A stretch of DNA of 64,000 bases from Candidatus Gastranaerophilales bacterium (lineage in GTDB: Bacteria; Cyanobacteriota; Vampirovibrionia; Gastranaerophilales; Gastranaerophilaceae), in contig CANQOQ010000003.1 in assembly GCA_947625495.1 (NCBI GenBank), positions 62,001 to 126,000 on the forward strand, given 5' to 3'. The translations under genes and the position numbers were made by a program. Below, in pieces: positions 18,958-27,990 of this stretch. How positions within the stretch are numbered: the stretch's first letter is position 1; each line of letters starts with the position of its first letter. Below the pieces are notes generated by a model. It ran no database searches. It saw only the letters and a list, made by a program, of their open reading frames with translations, and had not been told where the DNA came from.

Positions 18958-19619
18958 TAAAATACCTCAAAGCTTCCATAGGATAATCCGTACAAATCAT
19001 TATGCCTTTAATATCTTTATACCTTTGCCAAACATTTTTATATTCTCTTTTGTGAAGGTCAGGAGATACTATGCAGACTTTTTTATTTTTATTTAATAAA
19101 TTTTCTATATCTTTTTTATAAAACCAATCGGAATTAAAACTATCAAGCCAAATGCCCTTGGTCTCTTCAAGTAATATCGGATTTTTTATAATATCGCTAA
19201 TTCCGCTGTAAAAATTCAACCCCAATTTGTGTTGATAAATCATTTCAGGGATTGACATATCAAAAGTAAAATAGTTAGTGCAATTATATTTATTTAACAG
19301 TCTTTTTATCTCATCAGCAAGCCCATCTGCTTTAATATTAAGCGCTAACGGGGGGGGGGAATTTTCTTCCGTCAAAAAGTTTCAAAAGCTCTTCAAAAGT
19401 CATTTCATCACCCTTTGGCATGTTATGAGAAATTACAATAGTTCCTTTTATATCTCTTAAATCCGTTTCGATACCAAAACCACTATCAAAAGCTCGTTCA
19501 AAAGCAGTTTTTGTATTTTTCTCTGATTCTTTCAACCAATACCCGCGATGTGCAAATATTTCGATTTTGTTAATTGCACTACTGTCATAAGCCTGTTGTA
19601 AATATAGACTGGATTTCAT
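18950..19619 (-). pseudogene. phase-variable glycerophosphodiester phosphodiesterase-like gene (frame OFF)
   Basis: The frame starts at 19619 and carries the GDPD active-site set: 'AHRGYWLKES', 'FGIETDLRD' and the second His in 'VISHNMPKG'. At 'FDGRKFPPP' it enters a run of ten C (coding strand) and stops 5 codons later at 19338. The other half continues in another frame ('LALNIKADGLADEIKRLLNK') to 18950. The total length of 670 bases becomes divisible by three if one base is lost, so a tract of 9 (or 12) gives a 222-residue protein. As sequenced it is OFF. It heads the HAD-nucleotidyltransferase-cupin operon. A sequencing slip in the tract is the alternative. Confidence 0.75.
19350..19359. 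repeat. homopolymer tract, 10 G (coding-strand C), contingency locus 1
   Basis: A run of ten G in an AT-rich genome, inside the phosphodiesterase gene. The tract splits a frame whose two parts are both clearly GDPD-like. This is the hallmark of slipped-strand phase variation. Confidence 0.8.
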
Positions 19620-20533: not shown

Positions 20534-21310
20534 TTAATGTTTTACAATATTAAAATTTTTATCTATTACCCCGTTTTTTAGGGCATCTGACAGTATTTCA
20601 TAATCTTTGTCCGTATCAAATTCGAGCCAATTTGAAGTTATTATAATAGGAGTTACTTGTATACCGTCAGATATTATTTTATTAAGGATATCGGTCATAT
20701 ATCCCTGCTCAAAACTTTTACCCGATTGCTCCCACATTTTTCCCATATGATTTTTATAAGTATTAATAAAGGTTTTAATACCGTTTAATAAAAGTTTTAT
20801 AATCCCTACATATCTGTAATCAAGATTATCAGAGGAAGTAACTTCTTTCCCCAGCTCTATTATTTTCCCCTCTTTAACCGTTAAACTTTCTAAGTCATAA
20901 TCTGTAGTATTATATCTTAATTTCCACAAGAATTTCCAGTTATTATCCACAACAACACCAATATCTGAGCGATTATTAATACACATATCCACAACTTTTT
21001 TTGTGTAAAGAATATCAGAATAGCAAATTAAAACATCATCATCCAAAAATTCTTTAGCACACATTAAAGTTTCTATCATATTAGTAGTATCAAATTTTTT
21101 GTTATGATAATATTTAATTCCGTTATAATTAATTTTATCAGCCTTATAACCCGTTACAATTGCAATATCATAAATTCCTGCGCTTTTTAATGTTTCAATT
21201 TGCCTTTCTATAAGAGTTTTTCCGTTTAAATTAAGCATACCTTTGGGTAAATTTTCAGTATATTTCCCCATTCTTGTTCCTTTACCTGCAGCAAGTATAA
21301 TCGCTTTCAT
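20534..21310 (-). CDS. nucleotidyltransferase, Cj1416-like (CTP:phosphoglutamine cytidylyltransferase candidate)
   Basis: 258 residues. The N-terminus 'IILAAGKGTRMGKYTENLPK' is the full signature of LicC-type cytidylyltransferases. It is followed by 'GKTLIERQIETLK' and the metal-binding Asp in 'LICYSDILYT'. Late 'WLEFDTDKDYEI' resembles phosphocholine/phosphonate cytidylyltransferases. In C. jejuni, Cj1416 makes CDP-L-glutamine from CTP and L-glutamine phosphate. Here the gene is third in the operon after a Cj1418-like and a Cj1417-like gene, as in Campylobacter. Its start overlaps the gene upstream by 29 bases. The assignment rests on context as much as on sequence. Confidence 0.65.
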   Translation of the reverse strand: MKAIILAAGKGTRMGKYTENLPKGMLNLNGKTLIERQIETLKSAGIYDIAIVTGYKADKINYNGIKYYHNKKFDTTNMIETLMCAKEFLDDDVLICYSDILYTKKVVDMCINNRSDIGVVVDNNWKFLWKLRYNTTDYDLESLTVKEGKIIELGKEVTSSDNLDYRYVGIIKLLLNGIKTFINTYKNHMGKMWEQSGKSFEQGYMTDILNKIISDGIQVTPIIITSNWLEFDTDKDYEILSDALKNGVIDKNFNIVKH

Positions 21311-21923
21311 TTATTTCTCCGTTCGTATTTATAAAATTTTTAATTAGCTGCTCAGAAAAAATACGAGAAGCTTCATCGTTAAATTTTCTTTCAGGATGCC
21401 ATTGAATTCCTAAAATTTTCATTTTGCCGGAATAAAATGCTTCAATTACATCATTTTCTTTATCTATAGCTAAAACATTAAGTCCTAAAGCCAAATCATT
21501 TTTGAGAATACCGTCATTATGATAATTATTAACGCATATTACTTTATTATTAATATAAACTTCGTGGTCAACTCCGATTACCCTTTTTATTTTTAAATTA
21601 TTAAGAGATGATAATTTCCCGCCTAAAAGCAGATTAACATATTGCATTCCTCTGCAAACGGCAATTATTGGGATTTTATTTTTAACTGCGGCATTAAACA
21701 ATTCCGCTTCAACTAAATCCCTTTCTTGCTGTTCTTTATATATATTTCCCCCGCCCGTTAAAATTAATATATCGGCATTAAATAAATCTGCCTTTTGAAA
21801 GTTTGAAACAGGAATTAATTTTACTCCCAGATTGTTGTAAAAATTTATATAATCTTTTTCAAGCGAATCACAAGAAGCACCGTATGAATTAACTGTTTGT
21901 CTTTGAGTTATTATACCAAGCAA
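21282..21923 (-). CDS. class I glutamine amidotransferase-type hydrolase, Cj1417-like
   Basis: 213 residues of the peptidase C26/gamma-glutamyl hydrolase fold. The nucleophile is the Cys in 'IIAVCRGMQYVNLLLGGKL', and the His-Glu pair lies in 'GIQWHPERKF'. The 'GGGNIYKEQQERDLVEAEL' segment is typical of the family. Cj1417 of C. jejuni hydrolyses CDP-L-glutamine to cytidine diphosphoramidate and glutamate. The position between the kinase (13-base overlap) and the cytidylyltransferase (29-base overlap) is the same as in Campylobacter. Alternative: a general gamma-glutamyl hydrolase such as PuuD. Confidence 0.7.
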   Translation of the reverse strand: MLGIITQRQTVNSYGASCDSLEKDYINFYNNLGVKLIPVSNFQKADLFNADILILTGGGNIYKEQQERDLVEAELFNAAVKNKIPIIAVCRGMQYVNLLLGGKLSSLNNLKIKRVIGVDHEVYINNKVICVNNYHNDGILKNDLALGLNVLAIDKENDVIEAFYSGKMKILGIQWHPERKFNDEASRIFSEQLIKNFINTNGEINESDYTCCR

Positions 21924-24718
21924 ATTTCTTTATCTCCGTTTTCAATTTTACCTGATTTACAATTAATAACTGCCGATTTAAAATGTGAAACTTTTGAATA
22001 AATCTGTTCCCCGACTCCTATAGCGGCAGGCAAACCGAATTCCGAACACCTTATTGCCATATGAGATGCTACTCCGCCATATTTTGTTACCAAGCCTTTT
22101 ATGTTTTTGGTAAATATCCAATCATAACCGGGATCTGCTTTATCTATTAAAACTATTTTCCCCGAAACATCGGCATTTTTATTATTTTCTAAATTAATTA
22201 TTTCGCCCGTGATAATTTTATCCGAAATAAAGTTTGGTTTTGCCTGTTCAAATTTTATAAAAGAAAAACTGTTTTCATCCAGAATAACTTCGGGAAGTTC
22301 AATCTGCGAATTTAATTCCCAAATTTCTTTTCTTCCTTTTATTATGGTAGTTAAAAAATCTTTTAAATCCCACTCATTTTTATATAAATTTGCGGCATAT
22401 ATATCATTAACGGTTAAGAAAGCAAAGTCGCTGCGGCTAAATCCCATTATATTACCTATTTTTGCCAGAATTTCTATTGCAAGCGAAAGTGATTTTGTAA
22501 ATTCAAATTTAAAATATTCCCTTTGTTCAAAAGCGGTTCTTAAAAATTTTACGAAATTATCACATTTTAAATTTAATTGTGCCAAAGGAACTTCAAATAA
22601 TTCTTCATCAATATTTTCGTTAACATTACAATTATTTGATGAAATATTATTAATTTTATATTTTTTTTCAAACTTCATATCGGAATAAACGGGAGTTGTT
22701 ATATCATAAGTCCCTGCTCTTAAATGACCGTATTTTAAATTGAATTCTTTTAAAGAAAGTTTATTACATAAATACAGGTCAAAATCTTTTGCAAATTTTC
22801 CTGCCACTGTATCAATACTGAGCATAAATTTTTCCATTTTATCAAAAGAAATATATGACTTAGCAACAAGAGTTCTGCAAAAGGCCTTAGCTATAAAAGC
22901 ATATCTTGCCTGTCTTGAAAACTGCGGAGTAGCGTTTATTTTTATATTGGAAATCAGAAGCTTAAAGCAGTCATTTAATTGTTTTACCGTTAATTTCTCA
23001 TTTCTCAGCTCACTTTGAACTCTTTTTCTTATTATTTCAAGGTCGGTTAAACTTTTTAAGTCATCTTGCAAAACATCAAAATATTCATTTAATGCCTTTT
23101 GTGTTAATTTATACAGTGATGATTTTATTTCTTCAATTTCTTTTTGATTAAAACCGTTATCAAGTAATTCCTTCAGCTTATCATCAGTTTCAAAATCCAA
23201 ACAGCTCAATGTTATTTCAAATTCTATCTTGTCATGAAGTTTTAAATTATTTTTCAATTTTGTTTTGTAAAAATTAACCAATTTGTTTGTTAGTTTTTCA
23301 CTTACGGAATCAGGAATTAATGAGCGGAATGAATAATCTATGGAAATATAAGGTTTATTGGCAAATCTTCGCATTAAATTATGATTAACTTCTTTATAGC
23401 CCATTGGTACCAAACCCTCATTCCAAGGTCTTGAAGTTATAATTTCTTTATATAAAGAATAATCAAGGTTCTTAGGGTTAGAGCCGATAATTTCCGCAGG
23501 ATTCCAAAACGCCATATCCGAATACATCATTGGTTCATCAGAATAAACATTTAATAATTTTAAATACTTATTTTTTGCATTATCAACCAATTCATATAAA
23601 ATTTCTTCATTTATGTCTTTCTTATATTTATAGTTTGCAGCTAAAGGTCTGACTTGGAAGATAACTACTTTACCGTCATTTTTTATTGCAAATTCAATAT
23701 CAAGAATTATATCCGTTAAAATATCTTCTATTTCTTTAACCGATATAATTAATGGTTTCCATTCTTTCTGTATTTTATCAACCGGACTGTTTCGGAGAAT
23801 TCTTATGGTCTTACTTGCACCTCCCGAGGTAACGGAATCGGTTGAGCCGTTATCATCATAGTTTATTAAATAGTAAGGACGATTTTCCTGAATATCCCTT
23901 GTAAATATTACACCCGAGTATTTTATATTTTCGGTTTGTTTTTGTATTAATATTTGTTCATCGGATTTATTCATGCCCGAAACTTTTTTATAAGAAGCGG
24001 CAACGGAATAAATCGCATTTTCCGTTTCAATTTTACTGGTTGAATCTACATTTAAAATACTTTCAAAACATCCGGCATTAGAGCTGTTAAATCCGTCTTC
24101 CATTGAGCAAGAGCTTCTTACCACTATTTTTGAGCCTTTAAATTTATTTTTTATTTTTTCAAATATTATAGATTTATTTTTATTGAATTCCGACTCCGTT
24201 ACAACTAAAATATCTTCAATTCTGGATTTTTTTAATTTATCCTTTAAATTCAGCAAAGTATTGGCTTTTGTTGAAATAATATCATTTCTTTTTAAAGATA
24301 TATCATTAGTCTCTTTTAACCTGCGATATATATTCTCGGGTGATAATTTTTTGTAATAAGGAATAATTACAATTTTACAATTAACGGATTTTAAAAATTC
24401 ATCCGTAGGCAGAATTTTCCAATGAGAGCCTCTATACAATGTAATTTGTGCTTGGGGATATTTTTCGTGTATTTTTTTCAAATTATTTGTAGGGTCAAAT
24501 GTTTCCTGCGGAATAATTTCATCAATAAGATTAAGTGATTTTAACGTTTGATACCTTTCTTCATAGGTTTCAAGCAGCTGACCAAACCATTCTATTATTG
24601 AATCATCTTTTATTAATCCGAATATATGTAAATCAGAATTTTTTTTAGCTTCCTCAAACGCTTTAATGTGACCGACATGAAGTAAATCTACTATACCAAA
24701 ACTATATGAAATGTTCAT
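21911..24718 (-). CDS. HxGH nucleotidyltransferase fused to PEP-synthase-like kinase (Cj1418-like, L-glutamine kinase candidate)
   Basis: 935 residues from the ATG complementary to 24716-24718, chosen for GAAAGG upstream. Residues ~1-135 are a TagD/GCT-type cytidylyltransferase-like domain ('SFGIVDLLHVGHIKAFEEA', later 'LSPENIYRRLKE'). The next ~500 residues are PEP-synthase-like ATP-binding ('VVRSSCSMEDGFNSSNAGC', 'IFQVRPLA'). The C-terminus is the swivelling phosphohistidine domain with 'GGVASHMAIRCSEFGLPAAI'; its His carries the phosphate. C. jejuni Cj1418 has this kinase architecture and phosphorylates L-glutamine amide nitrogen with ATP. The N-terminal fusion is an addition I do not know from Cj1418. 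First gene of a tight three-gene operon. Confidence 0.7.
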   Translation of the reverse strand: MNISYSFGIVDLLHVGHIKAFEEAKKNSDLHIFGLIKDDSIIEWFGQLLETYEERYQTLKSLNLIDEIIPQETFDPTNNLKKIHEKYPQAQITLYRGSHWKILPTDEFLKSVNCKIVIIPYYKKLSPENIYRRLKETNDISLKRNDIISTKANTLLNLKDKLKKSRIEDILVVTESEFNKNKSIIFEKIKNKFKGSKIVVRSSCSMEDGFNSSNAGCFESILNVDSTSKIETENAIYSVAASYKKVSGMNKSDEQILIQKQTENIKYSGVIFTRDIQENRPYYLINYDDNGSTDSVTSGGASKTIRILRNSPVDKIQKEWKPLIISVKEIEDILTDIILDIEFAIKNDGKVVIFQVRPLAANYKYKKDINEEILYELVDNAKNKYLKLLNVYSDEPMMYSDMAFWNPAEIIGSNPKNLDYSLYKEIITSRPWNEGLVPMGYKEVNHNLMRRFANKPYISIDYSFRSLIPDSVSEKLTNKLVNFYKTKLKNNLKLHDKIEFEITLSCLDFETDDKLKELLDNGFNQKEIEEIKSSLYKLTQKALNEYFDVLQDDLKSLTDLEIIRKRVQSELRNEKLTVKQLNDCFKLLISNIKINATPQFSRQARYAFIAKAFCRTLVAKSYISFDKMEKFMLSIDTVAGKFAKDFDLYLCNKLSLKEFNLKYGHLRAGTYDITTPVYSDMKFEKKYKINNISSNNCNVNENIDEELFEVPLAQLNLKCDNFVKFLRTAFEQREYFKFEFTKSLSLAIEILAKIGNIMGFSRSDFAFLTVNDIYAANLYKNEWDLKDFLTTIIKGRKEIWELNSQIELPEVILDENSFSFIKFEQAKPNFISDKIITGEIINLENNKNADVSGKIVLIDKADPGYDWIFTKNIKGLVTKYGGVASHMAIRCSEFGLPAAIGVGEQIYSKVSHFKSAVINCKSGKIENGDKEICLV

Positions 24719-24733
24719 AATAAAACCTTTCAT

Positions 24734-25080
24734 ACAGTTTTTTTATTATTTTACGGGTTATATTATATAAACACAGATTTGAGGGGGGGGGAATTTTTTA
24801 AAATTTTAAAAGCCTCTTTTTCCATAATTATAACTTTAATTAATTCCAGATCTTTATTGCTTAATATGAATTTTATCATAAATTATAATTTAGTGTAAAC
24901 TATGCCAATAATTTTGGTAATTTTGTCAATTTTTGAATCTGTTTATTTGTATAGTTAACAGTTTAAACTTTAAGCAACAACAACTTTTTCTATCTTTAGA
25001 GTGTTTTTAAAATACAAGACTCTTGTAAAATTGCCGTATATAACAAACTAATTTTAAATTTTTAGCCAAAGTAGTTAAAC
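24734..25080. other. intergenic leader region with promoter and possible small ORFs
   Basis: 347 bases between the kinase operon and the M48 gene. On the minus strand a TATAAT (complement of 24882-24887) lies 163 bases upstream of the kinase start, with a poor TTGGCA-like -35 15 bases before it. The leader contains a small open frame from the ATG complementary to 24877-24879 (MIKFILSNKDLELIKVII...) that runs into the homopolymer tract. With 9 C it stops soon after; with 8 C it would run on and stop just inside the start of the kinase gene. No strong ribosome site precedes it, so translation is uncertain. Confidence 0.5.
24783..24791. repeat. homopolymer tract, 9 G (coding-strand C), contingency locus 2
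   Basis: Nine G between the likely promoter and the start of the glutamine-kinase-like gene, about 65 bases upstream of its ATG. The flank (AAATT before the C run on the coding strand) is the same as at tract 1. Length change here could alter the leader reading frame, the RNA structure or ribosome access of the operon. Confidence 0.75.
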
Positions 25081-26115: not shown

Positions 26116-26226
26116 GATTTATTTTCTGTCATTTTATATAAAGGGATTTCAAATCAGGTAAAACGTGGTTTATACAATCGATATAAATCTGTTGATGAAT
26201 TATGTGAAGCTTTCAAAAATATATAA
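26083..26226 (+). pseudogene. fragment resembling McrC-type restriction subunit
   Basis: An open stretch without start codon ends at TAA 26226. Its peptide 'EEFENIQDLFSVILYKGISN' followed by 'QVKRGLYNRYKSVDEL' resembles the helical segment before the conserved 'GL..Y' of McrC-family proteins. It is cut at its 5' side where the M48 gene begins on the other strand. It is too short to be sure of the family. Confidence 0.3.
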
Positions 26227-26295
26227 GTTCCGTTTGGTTCCGTAAAAAGTTCCGTTAAGGTTCCGTTATGGAACAGAAAAATATTTTTCTGGAAC
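26227..26295. repeat. GTTCCGT repeats and 18-bp palindrome
   Basis: GTTCCGT occurs at 26227, 26237, 26249 and 26260, that is every 10-12 bases, close to one helical turn. Two inverted half copies (GGAAC) follow at 26270 and 26291, flanking a perfect 18-bp palindrome, CAGAAAAATATTTTTCTG (26274-26291). This could be an iteron-like protein-binding site, or the linker of a lost gene in which 'VP'/'SV' codons repeat. The rest of 26296-26540 holds nothing I recognise. Confidence 0.45.
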
Positions 26296-26540
26296 TTGTG
26301 TTATTTTATTTAGTTATAAAAATCTGATATTTAATATAGGATATTTCCTTACAGAAATAAGAACTTAAGACGTATTCATTTGTAAAATTTGGCTTTTAGA
26401 GAACACAAAATACTTCAAATCGGACAGATTGGATTTTTCTGTAACCCAAAATTGTTATAAAATGCCTTTGATAACAGGGGGATTGTGACTGGTTCCCTTT
26501 TTCTGTATTGTTCTGTTCTTTTACAACAACTACAAATATC

Positions 26541-26577
26541 AAAAAACAAAAGAGCCCAGTAATTACAAGGCTCTTTA
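26541..26577 (-). terminator. rho-independent terminator after tRNA-Gln
   Basis: On the minus strand AAAGAGCC and GGCTCTTT pair around an 11-base loop. The stem is followed by TTGTTTTTT, just 3' of the tRNA-Gln gene. This is a standard intrinsic terminator. Confidence 0.8.
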
Positions 26578-26579
26578 CT

Positions 26580-26655
26580 TGGCTGGGACGGAAGGATTCG
26601 AACCTCCGAGATGCCTGGACCAAAACCAGGTGCCTTACCACTTGGCGACGTCCCA
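26580..26655 (-). tRNA. tRNA-Gln (anticodon TTG)
   Basis: The acceptor stem TGGGACG/CGTCCCA, the anticodon loop with TTG inside CTGG-TTTTGGT-CCAG, and the T-arm GGAGG-TTCGAAT-CCTTC are all visible on the minus strand. The CCA end is encoded (complement of 26580-26582). A terminator follows immediately. It reads CAA glutamine codons and is a likely substrate of the GatCAB route (gatA is in this window). Confidence 0.95.
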
Positions 26656-26732
26656 TTACTTTCGACTATTATATATTATTAACTATACAGTTAAAAGTCA
26701 AGACTTATTTTACCTTATGATATAATCAATAT

Positions 26733-27990
26733 ATGTCGGATTATTTTAAGAATAAAAATATTTTATTAGTTTCACAAAATCTTCAAATTGAAGGTGCTGC
26801 GATTGTACTTTACAATTTAGCACAAATTCTTATTAATCTTGGATTTAATATTGATATTTTAGCTTTTCAAAACGGACCTCTGTCAAAAAAATATAGTGAA
26901 CTTGGTATAAATATTAATTTCGGTTTAAATTATAAGGAATATCCTTTTTTTCTACATCAAAAACTTATCAATTATGATTTAATAATTGCTAATACATCTG
27001 TTTCATACAAAATTGTAGAAAAATTGAAAGATTATGTACCTGTTATATGGTATTTACACGAATCAAAAATACCCGAGTTGTTTATAAAAAATATGGAAAA
27101 TTTTAACAATATTTATTGTGTAAGTGAATATGCGAAAGAAGAACTTGAAAAATCATTTTCAAATCTTAATCAGAGAAAAAATATTAAAATTATATATAAT
27201 TATGTGGAAGACGAAAATAAATCAAAAGAAAAATCCCCCCCCCCGAAAGGATTTCACAACCAATCACGAACATCAAAAGGTTATATTCAATATTGTTGGG
27301 ACAATATCAGAAAGGAAAAATCAGCTTGGGCTTTTAAAAGCATACAGTATATTGCCTGAAAAGTATAAAAATAAGTGTCAAATAAACATAATCGGTTCAA
27401 ATGGAGACTCAAAATACTATAATTCATTAATGCAATTAAAAGATGATAATATCAATTTTACCGGCGTAGTCACGGGAAATAAAAGAATTGAATTATTTAA
27501 TGCTGCTGATGTATTTGTAGTACCTTCTCTTGATGATCCTGCATCATTAGTTGTATTTGAGGCTTGCATGTTATCTAAACCGTTAATCGTTTCCGATAAA
27601 GTCGGTGCAAAATATATGCTAAACGATAAAAACGGTATTATTTTTAAATATGATGATATTCAAGCTTTAAAAGATTCTTTAATTTATATGATTGACAATA
27701 AAGACTCTCTAACCGAGATGGGGAAATATTCACGAAAGATGTATGAACAACTTGCTACAAAAGAAAAATATATTAATGATTGGATAAATATTCTTAAAAA
27801 TGAATTTAATAAACAACACAATCTTAAAGATAAAAGCGATTTTAAAATAAAACACTCATTTTTATTGCCCATAACTGTTACAATTAATATTATATACAAT
27901 TTCTTATCTTATAAAATTTCGAAGCAAGAAAAGAAAAAATATTCTTTAGAAAAAAATATAAATATACTAAAAAACATATATAATTTATAA
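26733..27990 (+). pseudogene. phase-variable GT4-type glycosyltransferase (frame OFF)
   Basis: The first frame (from ATG 26733) encodes the acceptor half of a GT-B enzyme ('NILLVSQNLQIEGAAIVLYN', 'IWYLHES', 'IYCVSEYAKEEL'). At 'EDENKSKEKSPPP' it meets ten C and ends at 27359. The donor half lies in another frame ('FNIVGTISERKNQLGLLKAY', 'ADVFVVPSLDDPASLVVFEA' with the GT4 Glu-x7-Glu-like site) and ends at 27990. Total length is 1258 bases; losing one C gives 418 codons, a normal GT4 length. So 9 or 12 C is ON and the present 10 is OFF. It is monocistronic, probably adding a sugar to a surface glycan. Confidence 0.8.
27235..27244. repeat. homopolymer tract, 10 C, contingency locus 3
   Basis: Ten C in the linker between the two Rossmann domains of the glycosyltransferase, preceded by GAAAAAT. 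Frame bookkeeping shows that exactly one base too many separates two halves of one protein. Confidence 0.8.

Follow-up and report, generated by a model that had tools for sequence, protein, structure and literature searches.

A candidate phosphoramidate cassette with a fused cytidylyltransferase domain in a Gastranaerophilales genome

Three overlapping minus-strand open reading frames (ORFs) at positions 20534-24718 of contig CANQOQ010000003.1 of a Candidatus Gastranaerophilales bacterium, numbered within the 64,000-nucleotide stretch analysed here (the window), encode a glutamine-kinase-family protein, a class I amidohydrolase and a LicC-type cytidylyltransferase. On balance, the evidence favors a cassette that makes a nucleotide-activated phosphoramidate for surface decoration, working without a 3'-kinase step, through LicD-type transfer and under the control of a switching homopolymeric tract. 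The cassette is a variant of the O-methyl phosphoramidate pathway type of Campylobacter jejuni and not a copy of it, and no such report was found for this organism group. In C. jejuni, Cj1418 is the glutamine kinase, Cj1417 the gamma-glutamyl-cytidine diphosphate (CDP)-amidate hydrolase, Cj1416 the phosphoglutamine cytidylyltransferase and Cj1415 a further kinase, and Cj1415-Cj1418 suffice to make the donor (PMC11800397).

Three enzyme families in one cassette

The initial annotation proposed three overlapping genes of these domain types at this place, and the ORFs, their overlaps (13 nt between kinase and hydrolase, 29 nt between hydrolase and LicC-like gene) and their Pfam domains bear it out: PPDK_N and PEP-utilizers in the kinase, Peptidase_C26/GATase in the hydrolase and NTP_transf_3 in the LicC-like protein. 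The kinase start it had placed at 24718 also holds, and is better than 24733, since kinase relatives begin at MKISYSFG, matching ATG 24718, and an AAAGG lies 8 nt 5' of this ATG in an equivalent place in all three related cassettes, as read by eye. Its feature list was right on the three genes but omitted the fused CTP_transf_like domain, the upstream C9 tract and the tRNA-Gln border described below. The identical gene trio, with the same order and overlaps, occurs in two further genomes of the genus (sister genomes G034 and G012, with cassette loci L031 and L032; the window genome is G000). Because the triad also recurs in Vibrio, Pseudohalocynthiibacter, Azospirillum, Agrobacterium, a deltaproteobacterium and Campylobacterales, its linkage is far beyond chance. 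In some of these other taxa a Cj1415-like kinase and an S-adenosylmethionine (SAM) methyltransferase adjoin it.

With NF004508, the NCBIfam glutamine kinase family that includes the Cj1418 type, the kinase reaches 761 bits (cut-off 501, residues 152-931), and with the best ordinary phosphoenolpyruvate (PEP) synthase model only 53 bits. Its ATP-grasp and phospho-histidine domains are present with the catalytic histidine, and His891 and the RSS motif are invariant. Campylobacterales loci with Cj1417-type genes served as the yardstick in place of the C. jejuni proteins themselves. A hydrolase above the 250-bit cut-off of NF045546, the gamma-glutamyl-CDP-amidate hydrolase family, was found in 11 of 299 Campylobacterales genomes, and the yardstick loci came from eight genomes, seven with a hydrolase above the cut-off and one (G219) reaching 181 bits. 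At each locus the kinase is 764-783 aa long and is accompanied by a LicC-like protein and a hydrolase of ~200 aa; L201, L205 and L207 additionally hold an adenosine phosphosulfate (APS)-kinase-like protein of ~170 aa. In L201 the order is kinase, hydrolase, LicC-like, a 434-aa protein and APS kinase, behind two ~610-aa and two ~260-aa genes, which we take to be the C. jejuni order. Two Campylobacterales kinases beside over-cut-off hydrolase genes score 1096 and 1173 bits against NF004508, and over the kinase region three aligned Campylobacterales kinases share 36-37% identity with that of the window, the ATP-grasp and phospho-histidine motifs being kept. A search for a solved structure of this kinase family found none beyond PEP synthase relatives.

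In the hydrolase, the class I amidotransferase triad (C90, H176 and E178) aligns with the Campylobacterales enzymes and with PuuD. The protein is 29-31% identical to three Campylobacterales enzymes, and its blastp scores are 51-72 bits with Campylobacterales against 50 with E. coli PuuD, 39 with GuaA and 37 with PabA, the weakest Campylobacterales match being barely above PuuD. The hydrolase tree is a quick tree, in which PuuD and the remaining outgroups have very long branches and a meaningless placement. The LicC-like protein, an NTP_transf_3 protein linked to the kinase and hydrolase, is 35-41% identical to Campylobacterales Cj1416-type proteins, with long motifs in common, and 20-23% identical to two other nucleotidyltransferases of the window. 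Catalytic residues are retained in the alignments of all three cassette proteins. An ordinary PEP synthase, a PuuD-like hydrolase and a sugar nucleotidyltransferase lying together by accident would share Pfam domains with the cassette and nothing more. Best matches of this ordinary kind, named in the initial annotation as what would overturn its proposal, were not what the family scores and alignments returned; with the recurrence of the triad in many phyla they rule out these identities, and accidental adjacency is left with a negligible probability.

The fused domain and the spread of the kinase family

Residues 13-145 of the kinase match CTP_transf_like (PF01467) with 34 bits against a cut-off of 21. 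This type of domain is common to 24 kinases, nearly all with the HxGH motif and with the second-motif serine retained. A profile of 18 such domains matches the phosphonate cytidylyltransferase of Fom1 (PDB 5x3d) over the whole domain with an E-value of 2.7e-21. An AlphaFold2 model of the window domain (predicted local distance difference test score, pLDDT, 88) has 5x3d as its top PDB match by E-value, while TagD has the highest template modeling (TM) score among its first ten PDB matches. By Pfam score, HxGH motif and fold it is thus a PF01467 domain of the Fom1/TagD type. At the CTP-site motif it reads YYxx, in the position of RTxG, which we take from TagD to be the usual motif. The likeness to the Fom1 domain extends to its fusion at the N-terminus, whereas the protein to which the window domain is fused belongs to the glutamine kinase family.

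Two N-terminal fusion types occur in the glutamine kinase family, PF01467 in the branch of the window and a LicC-like domain in many proteobacteria. Kinases of the latter type (L094, L151, L155, L166-L168, L172, L175, L176 and L178) mostly have a separate LicC-like gene besides. In the plasmid copy L094 the nucleotide-binding loop of the fused LicC-like domain looks degenerate, so this domain may only bind. Phosphonate tailoring loci offer a parallel, with fusions of PEP mutase to PF12804 making up 33% of cases and those to PF01467 24% (PMC6697681). In them, as in the cassette, the same two nucleotidyltransferase types (PF01467, PF12804) are fused to or placed beside an enzyme making an unusual phosphorus bond, with LicD nearby. 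The cassette differs in its predicted bond, which is phosphorus-nitrogen (P-N) and not phosphorus-carbon (P-C), in having a PEP-synthase-like kinase and not a PEP mutase, and in the added glutamine hydrolase. We think that the fused domain is a second domain using cytidine triphosphate (CTP), of the kind fused to phosphonate-forming enzymes, and that it binds or processes an intermediate linked to cytidine monophosphate (CMP).

A scan of 84,980 species genomes returned at least 540 kinase relatives in bacteria and archaea. The 80 that were kept form a biased sample, since the alignment used to select them by similarity had the window protein at its head. Among these 80 are DPANN archaea, Thaumarchaeota, Altiarchaeales, Synergistota, Lachnospiraceae, Bacteroidota, Proteobacteria and another member of the Gastranaerophilales (L100). 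In a FastTree tree the window kinase and L100 fall in a branch of PF01467-fused kinases with gut Firmicutes, and the Campylobacterales in another branch with stand-alone and LicC-fused kinases. The pairing with L100 is in line with a host of the Gastranaerophilales type. Kinase and hydrolase are fused in one ORF at L099, most of L106-L118, L122, L124, L129, L131 and L133, mainly in Lachnospiraceae, and the neighbors checked at these loci are DegV, an integrase and transporters. The record name of L099 (MT837632.1) is Bacteriophage sp.; its ORFs resemble thioredoxin reductase, PRPP synthetase and MurC, as in an apparent bacterial contig. Near the triad in several phyla lies an accessory pair, a ~200-aa protein of no assigned family and a ~230-aa formyltransferase-like protein (L154 12190-13408, L126 7557-8884, L121, L137, L148, L157, L177 and L179); the window cassette lacks it. 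A 2022 review calls glutamine kinase C. jejuni-specific (PMC9561416), and the literature on Cj1416-Cj1418, judged by title, is nearly all on Campylobacter.

The initial annotation asked for a Cj1415-like kinase elsewhere in the genome. An APS_kinase search of G000 (97% complete), G034 and G012 found none, its matches being short and weak (~50 residues, about 17-21 bits), with FtsY among them. Linkage was counted at the 66 loci flanked by over 3 kb on each side. A Cj1415-like (APS-kinase-like) gene is near 1 of 21 PF01467-fused kinases and 1 of 12 with other, mostly LicC-like, N-terminal extensions, that is 2/33 extended kinases against 12/33 stand-alone kinases, Campylobacterales included (Fisher p = 0.005, a guide only because the pattern was sought after the first table and the loci are related). 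A LicC-like gene is adjacent in 21/21 and 11/12 of the two extended groups (32/33 combined). Among 112 neighbor proteins of PF01467-fused triads there are five LicD, four CDP-glycerol glycerophosphotransferase and three CDP-alcohol phosphatidyltransferase proteins, and these families are among the commonest neighbors, along with glycosyltransferases and flippases. From the rarity of the Cj1415-like gene and the presence of LicD and CDP-transferase neighbors, we infer that a CDP-linked donor is used directly in the PF01467-fused branch.

The C tract and the genomic setting

Of G/C runs longer than 5 the window has just three, all of 9-10, starting at 19350, 24783 and 27235; the genome holds 38 runs of 9 or more, where about 1 is expected from window dinucleotide or third-order statistics. 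Each of the three cassette genomes has a C9 or C10 run upstream of the kinase, at a distance of 49, 88 or 100 nt. The chance of a run within 200 bp upstream of a given gene is about 0.4% per genome (38 runs, 1.88 Mb), the three genomes not being independent. In each cassette just one start-bearing frame enters the tract, and past it one non-kinase frame is open for 26-43 codons, with its stop at an identical site inside the kinase gene in all three. In L031 and L032 the leader frames before and after the tract are joined and overlap the kinase start; in the window, with C9, they are not joined, and one more C would join them. This pattern suggests translational coupling through a leader ORF. 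It is possible that the tract acts through promoter spacing instead, although no consistent -35/-10 arrangement was seen by eye in the three sequences.

Phase variation by homopolymeric tracts in Campylobacter and Helicobacter is alike in that G/C runs of 9-10 lie in or upstream of genes, several of them for surface glycans, far above chance. The present case differs in its Gastranaerophilales-type genome, for which the literature search found no report of such variation, and in a tract placed in a possible leader ORF before the cassette. In C. jejuni the capsule genes of known function that are reported to be phase-variable encode transferases and a methyltransferase (PMC8355987), whereas the window tract lies upstream of a kinase. 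The C10 tracts at 19350-19359 and 27235-27244 both interrupt coding sequence, one in a split ORF pair (19619-18950) and the other in a glycosyltransferase-like gene (26733-27990); at each tract the reading frame is broken, as it is in switched-off contingency genes. Very long G/C runs at G013:C108, G019:C55 and C60 and the start of L203, several at contig ends, resemble sequencing artefacts, so tract counts of such assemblies are not to be trusted.

The cassette was found in 3 of 35 genomes searched in the genus, the window genome included, and the flanks of the other two are unrelated. The nearest relative (FtsY 98% identical) lacks it and is colinear only from 26528 rightwards, beside tRNA-Gln, where a 342-bp piece recurs with 100% identity in another species of the genus (G025, L233 19160-19501). 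Given this limit of colinearity, the copy elsewhere and the patchy occurrence, the cassette sits on the variable side of tRNA-Gln, in a region that is variable and probably island-borne. The tRNA-Gln and the adjoining repeat that holds the 342-bp piece (26116-26732) are a likely integration border. No clean empty site was obtained from the nearest relative, its colinearity ending at tRNA-Gln. A scan of viral contigs gave no sign of viral origin, the sole 'phage' match, MT837632, looking bacterial by its neighboring ORFs. Contamination of the metagenome-assembled genome is unlikely, because the cassette lies on a 176-kb contig with FtsY and occurs in three genomes of the genus.

A LicD gene lies directly 3' of the cassette in G034. 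G000 has its LicD gene on contig C21, as part of a candidate phosphonate locus that bears poly-G tracts. This locus (L222 7653-19891, L223 2226-8204) comprises LicD, a short CTP_transf_like protein, PEP mutase, a radical SAM protein fused to CTP_transf_like and a thiamine pyrophosphate (TPP) decarboxylase; G9-G10 tracts stand before or at several genes, and it looks phase-variable. As a candidate phosphonate tailoring locus, it would represent a second, P-C, surface chemistry in the same genome. For a Cj1421/Cj1422-type transferase, the 610-aa Campylobacterales candidate had no match in the three genomes, in a search that had no positive control.

Table 1. Coordinates of the cassette and of adjoining features in the window
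Feature	Position	Strand	Remarks
Glutamine-kinase-family protein (Cj1418-like) with fused N-terminal cytidylyltransferase domain	21911..24718	-	935 aa from ATG 24718; 940 aa from 24733
N-terminal CTP_transf_like domain, HxGH motif	24311..24712	-	PF01467, 34 bits, cut-off 21; profile match to Fom1 cytidylyltransferase 5x3d
Kinase core, ATP-grasp (PPDK_N) to phospho-histidine domain	21941..24280	-	NF004508, residues 152-931
Candidate catalytic His of kinase (GGVASHMAIR)	22061-22063	-	His891, invariant with Campylobacterales and others
Class I amidotransferase-like hydrolase (Cj1417-like), TTG start	21282..21923	-	Nucleophile Cys90, His176/Glu178; NF045546 best NCBIfam match
LicC/Cj1416-like cytidylyltransferase (CYTIDYLYLTRANSFERASE)	20534..21310	-	NTP_transf_3; 35-41% identity to Campylobacterales Cj1416-type proteins
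C9 tract, candidate phase-variation switch	24783..24791	-	49 nt upstream of ATG 24733
Possible leader ORF crossing the C tract	24763..24879	-	Out of frame in the window, stops past the tract; suggestive only
tRNA-Gln (TTG), border of conserved backbone and variable region with cassette	26580..26655	-	Homology to nearest relative ends at 26528

Proposed pathway and its alternatives

In the pathway proposed here, a cytidylyltransferase, most likely the LicC-like protein, would join the kinase product to CMP to give CDP-L-glutamine, and the hydrolase would cut off glutamate, leaving cytidine diphosphoramidate as the expected product. Unlike in C. jejuni, no 3'-kinase step would follow, and a CDP-donor phosphotransferase of the LicD type, encoded elsewhere in the genome and beside the cassette in G034, would transfer the phosphoramidate onto a surface glycan. 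Along the way, the domain fused at the N-terminus of the kinase may bind or process the CMP-linked intermediate, and the C9-C10 run upstream may switch the cassette by slippage. The initial annotation took this to be the same pathway as that of Cj1418-Cj1416, which stands for the three enzyme families, the gene order and the catalytic residues; the gene overlaps and the nearby homopolymeric G/C tracts are alike as well. It does not stand for the rest, as the cassette has no Cj1415-like kinase and no detected Cj1421-like transferase, its hydrolase scores below the family cut-off, and its kinase, with the extra N-terminal domain, and its hydrolase belong to different branches.

Several points weigh against the proposed pathway. 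There are two cytidylyltransferase domains in the cassette, a doubling for which this pathway gives no reason, and no transferase gene adjoins the cassette in the window genome. With 67 of the 250 bits required, the hydrolase is not filed in the NF045546 equivalog, its best NCBIfam family; best matches to this model in 17 other genomes or records with NF004508 kinases reach about 55-181 bits. Both kinase and hydrolase cluster in trees with gut Firmicutes and archaeal relatives and not with Campylobacter, and the exact amide substrate of the cassette could have drifted. In the Lachnospiraceae clade with the fused kinase-hydrolase, a cytidylyltransferase is nearby in 0 of 10 well-covered loci, so the kinase family can work without CDP activation; this fused protein might release free phosphoramidate. 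The tract lengths come from assembly consensus alone, and the difference between C9 and C10 is one between species.

In a different division of labor, the fused N-terminal domain would cytidylylate phosphoglutamine, and the LicC-like protein would activate some other phosphate (a phospho-alcohol, for instance) destined for the same glycan. The fused domain is joined to the kinase that would supply its substrate, as in the Ppm-CyTase fusions (PMC6697681), and among solved structures its closest relative over the full domain is an enzyme acting on a phosphonate. However, the stand-alone Campylobacterales kinases have the LicC-like protein alone, Cj1415-Cj1418 suffice for the C. jejuni donor, and the LicC-like gene, kept in all 21 loci with a PF01467 fusion, is therefore not replaced by the fused domain; this division is considered unlikely, though worth keeping in mind. 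Rather unlikely, too, is a kinase whose substrate is a different amide or amine (asparagine, a modified glutamine or a sugar amide), from which the cassette would make a different P-N compound. The low identity of the hydrolase to the Campylobacterales enzymes (about 30%) and the separate branch of the kinase would fit such a substrate, but a gamma-glutamyl-type hydrolase, with gamma-glutamyl-CDP-amidate hydrolase as its best NCBIfam match, stays with the kinase, which itself exceeds the NF004508 cut-off.

The end product could also be a phospholipid head group or a small molecule, with a CDP-alcohol phosphatidyltransferase taking the CDP-linked phosphoramidate or with its release. A CDP-alcohol phosphatidyltransferase is near the triad in Agrobacterium and three such proteins are among the neighbors of PF01467-fused triads, while the Lachnospiraceae fusion lacks a cytidylyltransferase; yet glycosyltransferases, flippases and LicD stand near related triads, LicD adjoins the cassette in G034, and a glycosyltransferase-like gene with its own poly-C tract is nearby in the window, which makes this outcome quite improbable.

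A broader proposal, put forward tentatively and with some doubt, is that P-N surface decoration may be widespread in bacteria and archaea, as a modular chemistry assembled along the lines of phosphonate tailoring. A large branch would fuse kinase and cytidylyltransferase and pass CDP-phosphoramidate straight to LicD without 3'-phosphorylation, and in gut cyanobacteria the system would be island-borne and poly-C-switched. Members of the kinase family turned up in more than 500 genomes, both bacterial and archaeal, against the description of glutamine kinase as C. jejuni-specific (PMC9561416), which suggests that this unusual P-N surface chemistry is far more widespread than reported. If the cassette is active, the fused domain and the missing 3'-kinase point to a donor unlike that of C. 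jejuni, and P-N glycan chemistry could influence how the immune system and phages recognize many gut commensals.

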